The translations under genes and the position numbers were made by a program. A stretch of DNA of 52,378 bases from an uncultured Erysipelotrichaceae bacterium (GTDB taxonomy: Bacteria; Bacillota_I; Bacilli_A; RFN20; CAG-826): positions 1 to 52,378 of the forward strand of contig CACXKR010000005.1 in the NCBI GenBank assembly GCA_902768335.1, written 5' to 3'. The notes beneath the pieces are model-generated. The model was not told the origin of the DNA. It did no database searches and saw only the letters and a list, made by a program, of their open reading frames with translations. Each line of letters begins with the position of its first letter. Position 1 is the stretch's first letter. Below are positions 24,243-29,979 of this stretch, in pieces.

Positions 24243-24993
24243 GCTTATATGCCTCCCAGTATGCTATTCCGATGTTATCGGAACCACCATGACTTTTAGC
24301 AACACCAATCAAAGTCTCGGCTTTTTGATCTATTCTTTCATTTGTTGAAAGCGCACTATGAATTTCAACTTCAGTCGCATTGTTATATAAACCATCTGAA
24401 CAAAGCAAAATAGAAAATCCATTGTTTGGATAAAATTTATAATCAAAACTGACTGATGGGAATGTTCCAACAGCGTTCATTAAAATATGTCGTTGAGAGG
24501 AAGTTTCTCTTTCTTCTTCACTTATCTTACCAGTCGCATATAGATATTCGACATAAGTTTGATCTTCACTTAATTGTTGAAGGCCTTTCTTTCTAACAAA
24601 ATATGCTCTTGAATCACCAGCATTTACGACAAATATTGAATCGCCATATAAAATCGCCATAACGACAGTTGTTCCCATGTCTTTATAAATGGGATCTTTT
24701 TGGGCTTCATCAAAGATGACTTTATTTACTTTTCGCATTGTAGTGCCAATCCAACGACGCACCGAAACATAAGAAAGAAATCCGTTTTTCTTTTTAAATT
24801 CGGCACTGATTGTATCAATTGCTAATTTGGAAGCGTAATCACCTTTATTGTGGCCACCCATTCCATCGCAAACGCAAAGCAAAACATTGCCAGAGGCATT
24901 GATTAAAGCAGTCGCTTGATCTTCGTTAGTCGAGCGAACGCAACCGATGTCGGTTTTAGCAATAAATTGTCCTTTATAATTAGTGCCCTTCAT
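24235..24993 (-). CDS. prpC: PP2C-family protein phosphatase (PrpC/Stp)
   Basis: Mn2+/Mg2+-dependent phosphatase that removes phosphate from serine and threonine, opposing the neighbouring kinase. The 252-residue protein has the metal-binding NEDQ, CDGMGGHNKGDYAS, VNAGDSRAY and C-terminal GGSDNIG motifs of bacterial PP2C. An AAAGGAAG site precedes the ATG, which overlaps the rlmN end by 14 bases. Confidence 0.95.
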   Translation of the reverse strand: MKGTNYKGQFIAKTDIGCVRSTNEDQATALINASGNVLLCVCDGMGGHNKGDYASKLAIDTISAEFKKKNGFLSYVSVRRWIGTTMRKVNKVIFDEAQKDPIYKDMGTTVVMAILYGDSIFVVNAGDSRAYFVRKKGLQQLSEDQTYVEYLYATGKISEEERETSSQRHILMNAVGTFPSVSFDYKFYPNNGFSILLCSDGLYNNATEVEIHSALSTNERIDQKAETLIGVAKSHGGSDNIGIAYWEAYKHD

Positions 24994-26020
24994 GTTCTTC
25001 CTTTGCTCTTAATTGCCCACAGGCAGCATCTATATCATTTCCAAATTCTTTTCTTACTGTTGTATTAACACCATGTTGCATTAAATAAGAGAAGAATTTA
25101 TGAACTTGTTTTTCATCGCTTCTTTTAAAGGAATTTTCATCCACAGGATTGTATGGAATGAGATTAACGTAAGCGAGAGTGCCTTTAATTAGTTTAACTA
25201 ATTGTTTGGCACATTCAAGAGAATCATTAACATCTTTGAGCATAATATACTCAAAAGTAACTCTTCTTCCGGCGTTTTTCTCATAGTAACGAACTGCTTC
25301 CATAAGCTCTTCCATCTTATAACCTTTTGAGATTGGCATAATCTTATTGCGAATTTCATCATTAGGCGCATGTAAAGAAATTGCTAAATTTGATTGAAGG
25401 CCTTCATGAGCATATTTCATAATTCCCGGGACAATTCCACAAGTGGAAACCGAAATATGTCTCGCTCCGATTGCCAATGCTTTAGGATGATTAATAATAC
25501 GAATAAAATCGATAACATTATCATAATTATCAAAAGGTTCACCGGTTCCCATAACAACAACATGAGATACTCTTTGGCCCTTTTCTAAAAGCACTTCATT
25601 CATTACGAGTACTTGACCGACAATTTCATGGACTTCAAGATTTCTCTTCTTTTTAAGAAGACCACTTGCGCAGAAAGCGCAGGCCATATTGCAGCCAACT
25701 TGGCTAGAGACACAAATTGCATTGCCATACTTATATGGCATGAGTGCAGTCTCTATTTTCGAGCCGTCTTCAAGCTCTAAAAGTAATTTAATCGTGCCAT
25801 CTTTTGATTCTTGTTTTTTAAATATCTTTGGAAGAGTTAAGCAAAAATCACGTTTTAATTCATCTCTAAATGATTTTGAAACATCGCTCATCTCATCGAA
25901 GGTCTTAGCTTTCTTTTCATAAATCCAAGTGAAAAGCTGAGTAGCGCGGTACTTCTTTTGACCTCTTTCCATAAGAAGAGATTCGAGTTTACTAATTTCT
26001 TGTCCATAGAGATTAATCAT
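24980..26020 (-). CDS. rlmN: 23S rRNA/tRNA adenine C2-methyltransferase RlmN
   Basis: Radical SAM enzyme that methylates A2503 of 23S rRNA and A37 of some tRNAs. It has the C-x3-C-x2-C cluster in CNMACAFCASG, a GTGEPFDNYDNV segment, and a C-terminal methyl-carrying cysteine region (DIDAACGQL). The start is ATG 26018-26020 with AGAGGT upstream, giving 346 residues; nine upstream codons were rejected because they extend into the previous gene with no ribosome site. It overlaps the rsmB-like gene by 8 bases. Confidence 0.95.
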   Translation of the reverse strand: MINLYGQEISKLESLLMERGQKKYRATQLFTWIYEKKAKTFDEMSDVSKSFRDELKRDFCLTLPKIFKKQESKDGTIKLLLELEDGSKIETALMPYKYGNAICVSSQVGCNMACAFCASGLLKKKRNLEVHEIVGQVLVMNEVLLEKGQRVSHVVVMGTGEPFDNYDNVIDFIRIINHPKALAIGARHISVSTCGIVPGIMKYAHEGLQSNLAISLHAPNDEIRNKIMPISKGYKMEELMEAVRYYEKNAGRRVTFEYIMLKDVNDSLECAKQLVKLIKGTLAYVNLIPYNPVDENSFKRSDEKQVHKFFSYLMQHGVNTTVRKEFGNDIDAACGQLRAKEEHEGH

Positions 26021-27263
26021 TTTGTCTACCTCTACGAAGAATAGCAAAATACATCGTTGTCATAAATGGATTAGACGTGATTTGTTGTTCTTCTTTTTCT
26101 AATGAAAAGTCATGATGCTTTTCTAAAAATTCTTTGATTAAGATACTACTTTCTTTCTTATTTAGTGTATTAACAACATAGGTTAGTTCACCATCTTCAT
26201 CAACCCACTTGGAGCATAATTCTAAAGCGTCTTTTTCGCCTTGGATAATCGCATCTAAATCGTCACGATCAAAATGGAGTAAAAAATCAGGATATTTTGA
26301 AACAATATCGAAACGAGTGGATAAAGGGAAAACAATTACTTTACTAAGTTTATAACTCACACCTGCTTTTAAAGCATACTCATCATTTGCTTCAAAGAAA
26401 TTGATGTTGCGCAATTTATTCATCCTTAAAAAACGCATTAATTCAATCCTTTGATTAAGATTAGGTACCATTAAATGTAGACCCAGTTTACCTTTAGTCT
26501 TAATAATGGCAGTTTTCGCGAAATCATCGTCATATCCTGAATAAAGTAGTACTTCTTCATAGGGATTAATTAGTTCGTCAATCAAGTTTTTAAAGCCAAC
26601 TTTAACATCAATAAAATCGTAATTTTTAAAGGCATCAGTTAATTGATAACGTTTTGTGCCTTTTACAAGAAGCATATCTTCAAAAGGAGATGAAAATTCA
26701 GGAAATTCATTTAGAATTTGCTTTGTTGATGTCTTCAATGAATTAACAACATAAGTTTGATAATCATATCTAATTGAAGCGTTCAAAAATTTATTAACTA
26801 AATCATCGCCATAATGTTTTCGCCACATATGGATTAGCCAAATAGGCACATTATATTTTGTGGCGAAATAAAAATCGCTGTCTTTTTCAAAAGAAATCAT
26901 TTCTTCAAGTGAGCCCTTGTAATCCAAAATTTGCTCACTTTTTATAAACTCATCATTCGGGATTTCATCTTTTAAGAACCTATTGCAGTTATTTTTCGAA
27001 AGTAAATGCAAATAGAAATTATTAGTTAGAGTAATAAAGAATAACGATTTTTGTTTAGGTGAAAAATTTATATTAAATCTTTGTAGCAAATGCTCAAAAA
27101 GAAAATAATGTTTCAACGCTTCTTTAGCTAAAAGGACTGATATATTGCTGGATTGAAATGTTTTTCTTTCGCTTGGAAAAACTTCATCGACTGCCTCGAC
27201 AAAGTCTTTACCATCGATGAGCACTAAATCGAGGATTTTTGCTCCAAGTCTTATTTCAACCAT
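26013..27263 (-). CDS. RsmB-family protein lacking all methyltransferase motifs
   Basis: The slot between priA and rlmN holds rsmB (16S rRNA m5C967 methyltransferase) in Bacillus, and the 416-residue protein keeps the RsmB outline: a NusB-like helical N-terminus (about 1-110), the linker VPIWLIHMWRKHYGDD (139-154), a Rossmann-like C-half, and LNKKES (367-372), matching the conserved LNxxEN. The active site is gone. The SAM loop (normally CAAPGGK) reads YSGYDDDF (241-248), the PCSG motif reads PLSTR (313-317), and the catalytic TC of YSTCT reads NT (365-366). The reading frame is long and intact, so it is probably a folded, non-catalytic rRNA-binding protein. Confidence 0.72.
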   Translation of the reverse strand: MVEIRLGAKILDLVLIDGKDFVEAVDEVFPSERKTFQSSNISVLLAKEALKHYFLFEHLLQRFNINFSPKQKSLFFITLTNNFYLHLLSKNNCNRFLKDEIPNDEFIKSEQILDYKGSLEEMISFEKDSDFYFATKYNVPIWLIHMWRKHYGDDLVNKFLNASIRYDYQTYVVNSLKTSTKQILNEFPEFSSPFEDMLLVKGTKRYQLTDAFKNYDFIDVKVGFKNLIDELINPYEEVLLYSGYDDDFAKTAIIKTKGKLGLHLMVPNLNQRIELMRFLRMNKLRNINFFEANDEYALKAGVSYKLSKVIVFPLSTRFDIVSKYPDFLLHFDRDDLDAIIQGEKDALELCSKWVDEDGELTYVVNTLNKKESSILIKEFLEKHHDFSLEKEEQQITSNPFMTTMYFAILRRGRQND

Positions 27264-27772
27264 TAATGTTTATGATGATCGCATCCACAATCGCAGTCGT
27301 GATGATGCTTTGCTTCCTCTTCTTTTCTCTTGCTAGCTTCTTCTAGTTTTTCTTCAAAACCTTCAAAAATATTGCCTTCGTATAATTCGCCATCATAATC
27401 ATCTTCTTCAACATTTACGAGATTATCTTCCTTAATAAAGCGAGGGTAATCTTTATTGATGTGTTCATAATGGTGATGGGAATGATAATAATAGAATTCA
27501 ACTTGTAAGTGAACTGAAAACTCCTTTAGAGTTTCAATTAAATATTTAGCAATTGCTTTTTCATTGCTTTCACAATGCTCAGGAGCATTTACTTTAACGA
27601 TTGCATTCCAACTTGTTTGTTCGACACCGTTATGAAATACATAAGCATCTGGAGCATAGAAAGAAACATTGTCTTCACTAACTTCAAATAAATTCGCAAG
27701 ATTCTTAGTGTGATCTTTTGAATAATGACCAATCGTGTATTGGTCTAAACCATAAATTGAGATTGTAACCAT
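27263..27772 (-). CDS. DUF1904-like protein with His/Cys metal-binding tail
   Basis: A 169-residue soluble protein. Residues 1-115 form an alternating strand/helix domain (VTISIYGLDQ, then VSFYAPDAYVFHNG, then VKVNAPE and LQVEFYYYHSHHHYEH) that resembles the tautomerase-like DUF1904 family, though the catalytic Pro-1 of tautomerases is absent; this match is tentative. An acidic linker (about 125-145) and a charged helix lead to a C-terminal tail KHHHDCDCGCDHHKH with seven His, three Cys and several Asp. Such tails bind Zn, Ni or Cu in metal chaperones. It overlaps the rsmB-like gene by one base and follows priA, where def and fmt sit in Bacillus. Confidence 0.65.
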   Translation of the reverse strand: MVTISIYGLDQYTIGHYSKDHTKNLANLFEVSEDNVSFYAPDAYVFHNGVEQTSWNAIVKVNAPEHCESNEKAIAKYLIETLKEFSVHLQVEFYYYHSHHHYEHINKDYPRFIKEDNLVNVEEDDYDGELYEGNIFEGFEEKLEEASKRKEEEAKHHHDCDCGCDHHKH

Positions 27773-27783
27773 TTTAGTACCTC

Positions 27784-29979
27784 CTAGAAGTCGTATGGAT
27801 CGACATTAACTTTAATATTTATTTGTGATTTGTTCTTAAGTGAATTTATTACTTCACCAAGATAGGCGTTAATTTTATCATAGTTTTTATATTTTATTAA
27901 TATAATTCGGTGATAATTGTTATTCTCATAGGCAATATAAGGTTCAACTGGCCCTAAAACTGATACATTTTCAAAACCTTTGGAATCGATATCACGGCAA
28001 ATCTTAGAAATAATATCAACAACCATATCTTCATTTTTACCAATGATTTCAATGCTTGTTAAATAAGTATATGGGGGATATTGTGAAACTTTTCTCACCG
28101 ACATTTCTTTAAGGAAAAATGCTTCATAATCCTGCTTGCTTGCCAAGCGGATGGCGTAATGATAAGGATTAAAGGTTTGAATTATTGCATGGCCAACTTT
28201 ATCCGCCCTTCCACTTCGGCCAACTGCCTGGGTAATTAGTTGAAATGCTCTTTCGGTCGAACGGAAAGAAGGTAGTGATAATCCAATATCAGCAAGAACA
28301 ACACCTACTAAGGTAACATTTGGAAAATCATGGCCCTTAGCAATCATTTGGGTCCCGACTAAAATATCTGCTTCTTGATTAGCGAAGGCTTCAATTGTTT
28401 TAGCAATATTGTTTCTTACTTCTCCAACATCACTATCGAGTCTTAATACCTTAGCTTCTGGGAATAGCTTTTTAACTTCATCAACTATTCTTTCTGTCCC
28501 AAATCCAGATCTGGATAAATATTTAGAGCCGCATTCTGGACAAACTTCGGCATTTAATTCGACGTGACCACAATGATGGCACTTAAGCATATTGTCTTCA
28601 CGATGATAGGTTAGAGCAATACCGCAGTTTGGACATTTGATAATACGCCCACAGCTACGACAAGTAATGTAACCTGAATGACCTCTTCTATTTATTAATA
28701 GAATAGCTTGTTCCTTTCTTTCTAATACGCCTTTCAATTGATCAATTAGATATTTTGAAAACATCGATGATTCTCGACTAAAAGAATATGCTTTCGACAT
28801 ATCGATTATCGAGGTCTTCGGTAGTTCTTGTTTGTTAATTCGATTTGGTAAAGAAGCAAAATGATAAACACCTTTACACGCTCTTGCTTTTGTCTCTAAA
28901 GATGGGGTCGCACTGCCAAGAATAACTTTAGAATTAAAATGAGCAGCTCTCATAATCGCAACATCGCGAGCATGATAAAACGGAAGTGAATCTTGCTTAT
29001 AAGATTCCGTATGTTCTTCATCAAGAATGATTAAACCGATATTGTCTAATGGAGCAAATATTGCACTTCTAGCGCCAACGACAACGTGACAATCGCCTCT
29101 TGAGATACGACGATATTCGTCATATTTCTCAGCAGGCGTTAATTCGCTATGAAGAATAGCGACATCTCCCGAAAATCTTCTTTGAAAATATTCAACCATT
29201 ACTGGAGTCAAAGATATTTCAGGCACTAACATTAAAACGTTTCGACCTTGCGCTAAAATTTTCTCTGAGATAGTCAAATAAACTTCTGTCTTTCCTGAAC
29301 CGGTAACACCTTGTAATAAAGTGACAGTTTTATCGGTTTTTAAAATAGACTCCACCGCTTGTTTTTGTTCGTCGGTCAATTCTTTTTTATGTTCTTTTTT
29401 ATATTCTGGAATCTCTAATCTAATCTTTTCTTCTTTTTCAAAATCAATTCGTTTCTTTTCATAGAGTTTTTGAACGATTGAAGGAGATTTGCAGTCTTTT
29501 TTGAGAATTCGACCATTTGTTTTTAGTAGTCTAATCAGTTCAATTTGTTTAGGTGTTAAATCCTCTTCATCATCATTAATTAATTTGACATATGTATCAT
29601 ATGCAACCTTTGGTCCTCTAAGAGCTGAAGAAGCTGGTTTCAAAGATGATGGTAGCATCGTCTGGAGAACACTAATTAAAGGGGCTAAATAATAATTTGA
29701 TACCTCTTGAGATAGTTTAATAAGTTCATCATTTAGAAGTGGCTTTTCATCAAGAACGTCTTTAATTTCGCCGATTTGAAAACCCATTTCCTCTTCGAGT
29801 TGTTCTTTAGTTTTATCGCTATCCTTAACATTTATTACATAAGCAATGGTATCTTTGTGCGCAAAACTAACCAAAACACGATAGCCAACACCAATCTGTT
29901 TATCACCTTTATAAATATAAGAAAAAGGGCGATTGAGCGTATTGGCTTTTCTTTCAATTAAAACCTCAAGCAGCTTCAT
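27784..29979 (-). CDS. priA: primosomal protein N' (replication restart helicase)
   Basis: 3'-5' DNA helicase that reloads the replisome at stalled forks. The 731-residue protein has an N-terminal fork-binding region, Walker A GVTGSGKT near residue 225, DEEH box in ILDEEHTES, four CxxC zinc pairs between RSCGRIIKCPNCG and CPECGSKY, and motif VI region QAVGRSGRA. Length is normal. It begins 15 bases after gmk; rpoZ and coaBC, usually between them in Bacillus, are absent from this place. Confidence 0.96.
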   Translation of the reverse strand: MKLLEVLIERKANTLNRPFSYIYKGDKQIGVGYRVLVSFAHKDTIAYVINVKDSDKTKEQLEEEMGFQIGEIKDVLDEKPLLNDELIKLSQEVSNYYLAPLISVLQTMLPSSLKPASSALRGPKVAYDTYVKLINDDEEDLTPKQIELIRLLKTNGRILKKDCKSPSIVQKLYEKKRIDFEKEEKIRLEIPEYKKEHKKELTDEQKQAVESILKTDKTVTLLQGVTGSGKTEVYLTISEKILAQGRNVLMLVPEISLTPVMVEYFQRRFSGDVAILHSELTPAEKYDEYRRISRGDCHVVVGARSAIFAPLDNIGLIILDEEHTESYKQDSLPFYHARDVAIMRAAHFNSKVILGSATPSLETKARACKGVYHFASLPNRINKQELPKTSIIDMSKAYSFSRESSMFSKYLIDQLKGVLERKEQAILLINRRGHSGYITCRSCGRIIKCPNCGIALTYHREDNMLKCHHCGHVELNAEVCPECGSKYLSRSGFGTERIVDEVKKLFPEAKVLRLDSDVGEVRNNIAKTIEAFANQEADILVGTQMIAKGHDFPNVTLVGVVLADIGLSLPSFRSTERAFQLITQAVGRSGRADKVGHAIIQTFNPYHYAIRLASKQDYEAFFLKEMSVRKVSQYPPYTYLTSIEIIGKNEDMVVDIISKICRDIDSKGFENVSVLGPVEPYIAYENNNYHRIILIKYKNYDKINAYLGEVINSLKNKSQINIKVNVDPYDF

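Follow-up and report, generated by a model that had tools for sequence, protein, structure and literature searches.

The gene at positions 26013 to 27263 on the minus strand of the window (the whole stretch of 52,378 nucleotides analyzed here, from an uncultured Erysipelotrichaceae bacterium) is a vertically inherited orthologue of rsmB that has lost its catalytic motifs and turned into a pseudoenzyme, and in most members of its clade, a sizeable assemblage of uncultured bacteria from the gut, it is retained in its place in the operon under purifying selection. The long intact frame reported in an earlier note on this DNA was verified: the gene runs from an ATG start to a TAA stop with zero internal stops and encodes 416 amino acids. 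We consider it reasonably probable that the product is a dead RsmB: it would have given up making m5C967 and would persist, as the earlier note suggested, as an assembly factor that binds rRNA independently of methylation.

The similarity of the window protein to RsmB is real, yet it lies far below curated cut-offs. The NCBIfam RsmB model NF011494 matched the protein with an E value of 2.7e-16 and 59 bits, below its cut-off of 319, and Pfam PF01189 scored 20 bits against a cut-off of 27, with the match limited to residues 320-392. The ferredoxin-like model PF22458 gave 19 bits (19.1 bits over residues 140-186, including PIWLIHMWRKHYG; positions 26706 to 26846, minus strand), and this block is common to the window protein and active RsmB. 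An AlphaFold model built from 29 relatives reached a pLDDT of 90 and a pTM of 0.85. Among solved structures, it lay closest to the SAM-bound and SAM-free forms of E. coli RsmB/Fmu, at Z scores of 34.5 and 34.2 and with 396-398 residues aligned (398 residues for the best match at Z 34.5), and in the Foldseek ranking the archaeal homologue 2yxl came first, with the E. coli RsmB/Fmu structures at ranks 2 and 3. The window protein is thus predicted to have the RsmB fold, with the NusB-like, ferredoxin-like, and Rossmann architecture visible in the comparison of the model with 1sqf (Z 34.5). The NusB-like N terminus that had been claimed from the letters alone was borne out by structure, since the alignment with 1sqf covers residues 1-412, whereas the Pfam NusB model found no match in the protein. 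For the assignment to RsmB as a whole, the HMM search, the fold comparison, and the gene position all agree.

RsmB binds SAM in its motif-I loop, its motif-VI cysteine attacks C6, and its motif-IV cysteine serves for release. We read these motif columns from an alignment with 29 canonical RsmB proteins, using the numbering of the window protein. In motif I, the SAM loop, DxCxAPGxK is replaced by LYSGYDDDF (residues 240-248; positions 26520 to 26546, minus strand), such that the near-invariant D240, C242, A244, P245, G246, and K248 have become L, S, Y, D, D, and F, respectively; the motif-II acid D266 is V. Motif IV reads FPLSTR instead of DAPCSG (residues 312-317; positions 26313 to 26330, minus strand), with the near-invariant D312, C315, and G317 changed to F, S, and R, and motif VI reads YVVNT instead of YSTCT (residues 362-366; positions 26166 to 26180, minus strand), with S363, T364, and C365 changed to V, V, and N. 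The two catalytic cysteines are therefore Ser315 and Asn365. The earlier note had correctly read YSGYDDDF in place of CAAPGGK and the loss of cysteine from motifs IV and VI, but its letters for motif VI needed correction, as S-T-C is replaced by V-V-N and the final T of YSTCT is retained (T366). Structural and RNA-side positions are likewise retained in the window protein, and they are conserved in 100 pseudo-RsmB sequences: P140 in 94%, W142 in 80%, G358 in 97%, Y362 in 96%, T366 in 94%, and E371 in 99%. Compared with RsmB (Sun/Fmu/RrmB), the m5C967 enzyme, the window protein shares the locus before rlmN, the three-domain fold, the ferredoxin-like block, and G358, Y362, T366, and E371, whereas it lacks the SAM loop, the motif-II acid, and the cysteines of motifs IV and VI, and it scores far under the cut-off. 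Since the SAM-binding residues and the attacking cysteine are gone, the protein should not make m5C967. Judged by these motifs, its inactivity is well supported, and m5C967 is presumably missing from the carriers.

The search covered 59 relatives at first and was afterwards widened to 279 genomes of the order. Pseudo-RsmB was found in families f1, f3, and f5, and 100/100 sequences read from them were degenerate. In these sequences, other residues stand in place of the motif-I and motif-II consensus, and the motif-VI cysteine is missing from all 100; the motif-IV column holds Ser in 73, Asn in 15, another residue in 3, and Cys in 9, one of the nine being the close relative G022. A loss of both cysteines in every carrier therefore had to be corrected to a loss of the motif-VI cysteine throughout, with the motif-IV cysteine kept in 9/100. 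The loss is clade-wide, spanning three families, which rules out an artefact of a single genome. Sister families f2, f6, f7, and f8 have canonical RsmB at the same locus. On a quick gene tree, the pseudo genes of the window's own order formed one clade (SH-aLRT 100) and sat on long branches. A scan for related loci with the genus alignment returned ten records, mostly labelled as Erysipelotrichaceae or Bacilli.

Neither pseudo-RsmB nor canonical RsmB was found in f4 genomes, in the f1 genera g2, g6, and g8, or in several genomes of the window's own genus. The individual genomes in which we found no RsmB-like gene were G005, G006, G010, G011, G013, G019, and G021; the own-genus genomes G011 and G013, which have no pseudo-RsmB, are 93% and 97% complete, respectively. 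Where relatives keep pseudo-RsmB, these missing genes are apparent secondary losses, some of them in incomplete genomes. As the gene is missing from some genera, it appears useful rather than needed everywhere.

A second lineage of this kind was found in family f23, in which RsmB-like genes of 359-374 amino acids lie beside rlmN in G523, G363, and G315 (loci L198, L199, and L200, respectively); motif IV reads PSS and motif VI reads TNT in these genes. Other sampled f23 genera have normal RsmB, and the f23 pseudo genes are nested within canonical f23 RsmB on the gene tree. The AU test modestly rejected a tree joining the pseudo genes of f23 with those of the window's order (p 0.029). Inactivation with retention seems to have occurred at least twice, with replacements of the same kind.

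The gene was expected between priA and rlmN, and this location held, except that a DUF1904-like gene intervenes between priA and pseudo-rsmB. rlmN, encoding the 23S rRNA A2503 methyltransferase (positions 24980 to 26020, minus strand; TIGR00048, 439 bits), has its likely ATG start at 26020, overlapping the end of pseudo-rsmB by 8 nt, and it lies directly downstream of rsmB or pseudo-rsmB in 107/107 readable loci. On the other side, the DUF1904-like gene (positions 27263 to 27772, minus strand) overlaps the start of pseudo-rsmB by 1 nt (TAATG), and it is preceded by priA (positions 27784 to 29979, minus strand), which is upstream of rsmB or pseudo-rsmB in most loci. The DUF1904-like protein scored 16.4 bits with PF08921, and its model has a MIF/tautomerase fold whose best Foldseek match is the DUF1904 structure 4m1a. 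It carries an acidic tail with an ELYEGNIF motif and a His/Cys-rich end; across the DUF1904-like proteins, the YxGN(I/A)F motif of the acidic tail is conserved, and the end is often His/Cys rich. A DUF1904-like gene stands directly before pseudo-rsmB in 90 of the 96 loci whose sequence reaches far enough, as against 0/9 canonical rsmB loci of the order, and priA adjoins rsmB in all eight canonical loci showing priA. At this locus, the DUF1904-like gene is limited to the pseudo-RsmB families of the order. These data make the DUF1904-like protein a candidate partner of pseudo-RsmB, perhaps, and a lead to follow; the pattern would also follow from one insertion event in their common ancestor.

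Position 968 of 16S rRNA, next to the RsmB target, was then compared with the RsmB state. In E. coli 16S rRNA, whose numbering is followed here, h31 spans U960-A975 and includes G966 and C967 (PMC6259748). Within the order, U968 (GCUACGCG, with C967 retained) occurs in 40 genomes, all of them from f1, f3, and f5, and A968 occurs in 17 genomes, namely, the 2 canonical-RsmB genomes with readable 16S, 1 of f4, 1 of g2, and 13 others of f1, which are mostly one subclade of pseudo-RsmB carriers. U968 as an exceptionless companion of RsmB loss was rejected on account of this subclade, in which A968 is seemingly a reversal. The 16S match of the window genome itself stops before h31 at a contig edge. 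Among 306 Bacilli, canonical RsmB is present in 0/56 genomes with U968 and in 49/52 genomes with A968 (Fisher p 1e-28, kinship ignored). The 16S tree shows five changes of RsmB state. Four independent pairs on it have support, too few for significance, and they gave a mean of 3.4 for the rule and 0 against it. The co-variation of position 968 with the RsmB state is therefore suggestive. The Spiroplasma group was reported to have RsmB and the Pneumoniae and Hominis groups to lack it (PMC4014445); f11 has A968 and RsmB, f22 has U968 and no RsmB, and the two families would fit the reported pattern if they are identical to the Spiroplasma and the Pneumoniae/Hominis groups.

Outside the order, A967 was observed in 38/45 U968 genomes; the window's clade retains C967. 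C967 together with U968 also occurs in genomes that have neither RsmB nor pseudo-RsmB (G338 of f26, and G336 and G377 of f17). A retained C967 is therefore no proof of h31 binding, and the idea that pseudo-RsmB specifically preserves C967 is weakened. Two genomes stood out in the 16S survey. The A968 16S of G118 (L281) clusters with genus g45, unlike that of its relatives, and is probably misbinned; G372 has one A968 and one U968 16S copy (L236 and L279) on one contig.

We reasoned that retention of the gene reflects a continuing role of the protein itself, and that this role is independent of methylation, since the RNA-binding architecture, the operon place, and the selection are all retained. 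In the mechanism that we propose, the protein would keep its NusB-like, ferredoxin-like, and Rossmann domains, with the SAM-binding residues and the C6-attacking cysteine gone; its most likely binding site would be on nascent 16S rRNA, close to helix 31 or to the head of the 30S subunit, where it would serve assembly or quality control independently of methylation, perhaps together with the DUF1904-like protein, whose gene lies just upstream. On the strength of the predicted fold and of precedents, 30S assembly or quality control is probably the likeliest role. Within the superfamily, NSUN4 together with MTERF4 plays a part in assembly for which methylation is not required (PMC3916286). This mitochondrial RsmB/NSUN protein resembles the present case in its methylation-free role in ribosome assembly and in having a partner, but NSUN4 retains methyltransferase activity, MTERF4 is unrelated to DUF1904, and the partnership in the window is putative. 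Catalysis by METTL15 is dispensable (PMC11197891), and a catalytically dead form of RlmB still stimulates assembly (PMC11194073). For METTL15, KsgA, and RlmB alike, the presence of the rRNA methyltransferase protein, and not catalysis alone, matters for assembly; these proteins keep their active site in nature, whereas in the window's clade it has been lost clade-wide. A bolder version, which we regard as rather doubtful, would combine pseudo-RsmB with the DUF1904-like protein in a 30S assembly module specific to the clade, in which the dead enzyme sits on unmethylated helix 31, the conserved YxGN(I/A)F tail docks on this enzyme, and the pair takes the place of methylation; the A968-to-U change would then be part of a rewiring that recurs with the loss of RsmB activity in Bacilli.

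The role of the pseudoenzyme could also lie outside the 30S subunit, as a regulatory subunit for RsmF or RlmN or as a chaperone of another RNA, and we see this as a possible but clearly less probable explanation. Activation of an enzyme by a catalytically dead relative has a precedent in the T. brucei AdoMetDC prozyme (PMC5201418), and coupling to rlmN holds at every readable locus. A search for a second rsmB, proposed in the earlier note, found none in the assembly, whose completeness of 89% leaves some room for a missed copy, and the sole other PF01189 gene detected is an RsmF gene on contig C7, with the RsmF N-terminal and PUA domains (PF17125 and PF13636) and intact motifs. These two models had no match in the window protein at E values up to 1. 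The window protein has the Rossmann core superfamily in common with RsmF (YebU), but it differs in having the N-terminal domain of RsmB and no PUA domain, and the intact RsmF is separate. RsmF-type genes are common in the order; however, sister families whose RsmB is normal have them and rlmN too, which suggests that RsmF and RlmN can each do without a dead partner.

It is quite improbable that the protein is still an enzyme methylating C967 or some other base, with SAM binding and the nucleophile moved to other residues. The model does have an intact Rossmann fold, migrated residues are on record for pseudoenzymes (PMC10211241), and the nine relatives with a motif-IV cysteine fit this idea. 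Nevertheless, neither motif I nor the motif-II acid remains, the motif-VI cysteine has gone as well, and the alignment of 100 pseudo sequences contains no conserved replacement cysteine near the active site: Cys exceeds 30% of the sequences in just two columns, at residue 48 of the N-terminal domain and at residue 350. The A968 beside the target is, moreover, U in many carriers.

Selection on the gene was estimated from 19 pairs with finite dS, a few of them saturated. dN/dS was 0.02-0.26 in these pairs, the closest of them (dS 0.09-0.3) covering the same range, and 0.13 in the f23 pair. These values indicated that the gene is not decaying and that the frame is retained for the sake of the protein. 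A decaying relic, for which the long branches and the loss of the gene in some genera could be cited, is therefore contradicted at the clade level and very unlikely, the more so as frames are full length in nearly all carriers across three families. The proposal of a kept pseudoenzyme rather than a decaying gene was upheld by this purifying selection and by the retained operon place. That the gene is a translational spacer, coupling rlmN and prpC-prkC to the operon with a protein product of little importance, is scarcely credible. The stop/start overlap or near-overlap with rlmN seen at many loci speaks for it, yet spacing by itself would preserve neither amino-acid identity at a dN/dS of 0.02-0.26 nor the fold.

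Pseudomethyltransferases are an already known kind of protein. In the literature searched, with partial coverage, we found no description of an inactive RsmB lineage, nor of a bacterial clade keeping a dead RsmB in place, a condition that has apparently arisen twice. If the co-variation of position 968 with RsmB is upheld in a powered test, it would provide a marker of m5C967 loss readable from any 16S sequence. Pseudo-RsmB represents a natural separation-of-function experiment, in which, apparently on two occasions, evolution has stripped an rRNA methyltransferase of catalysis while sparing the protein itself. The retention of the protein after the loss of catalysis argues for a role of RsmB beyond methylation.
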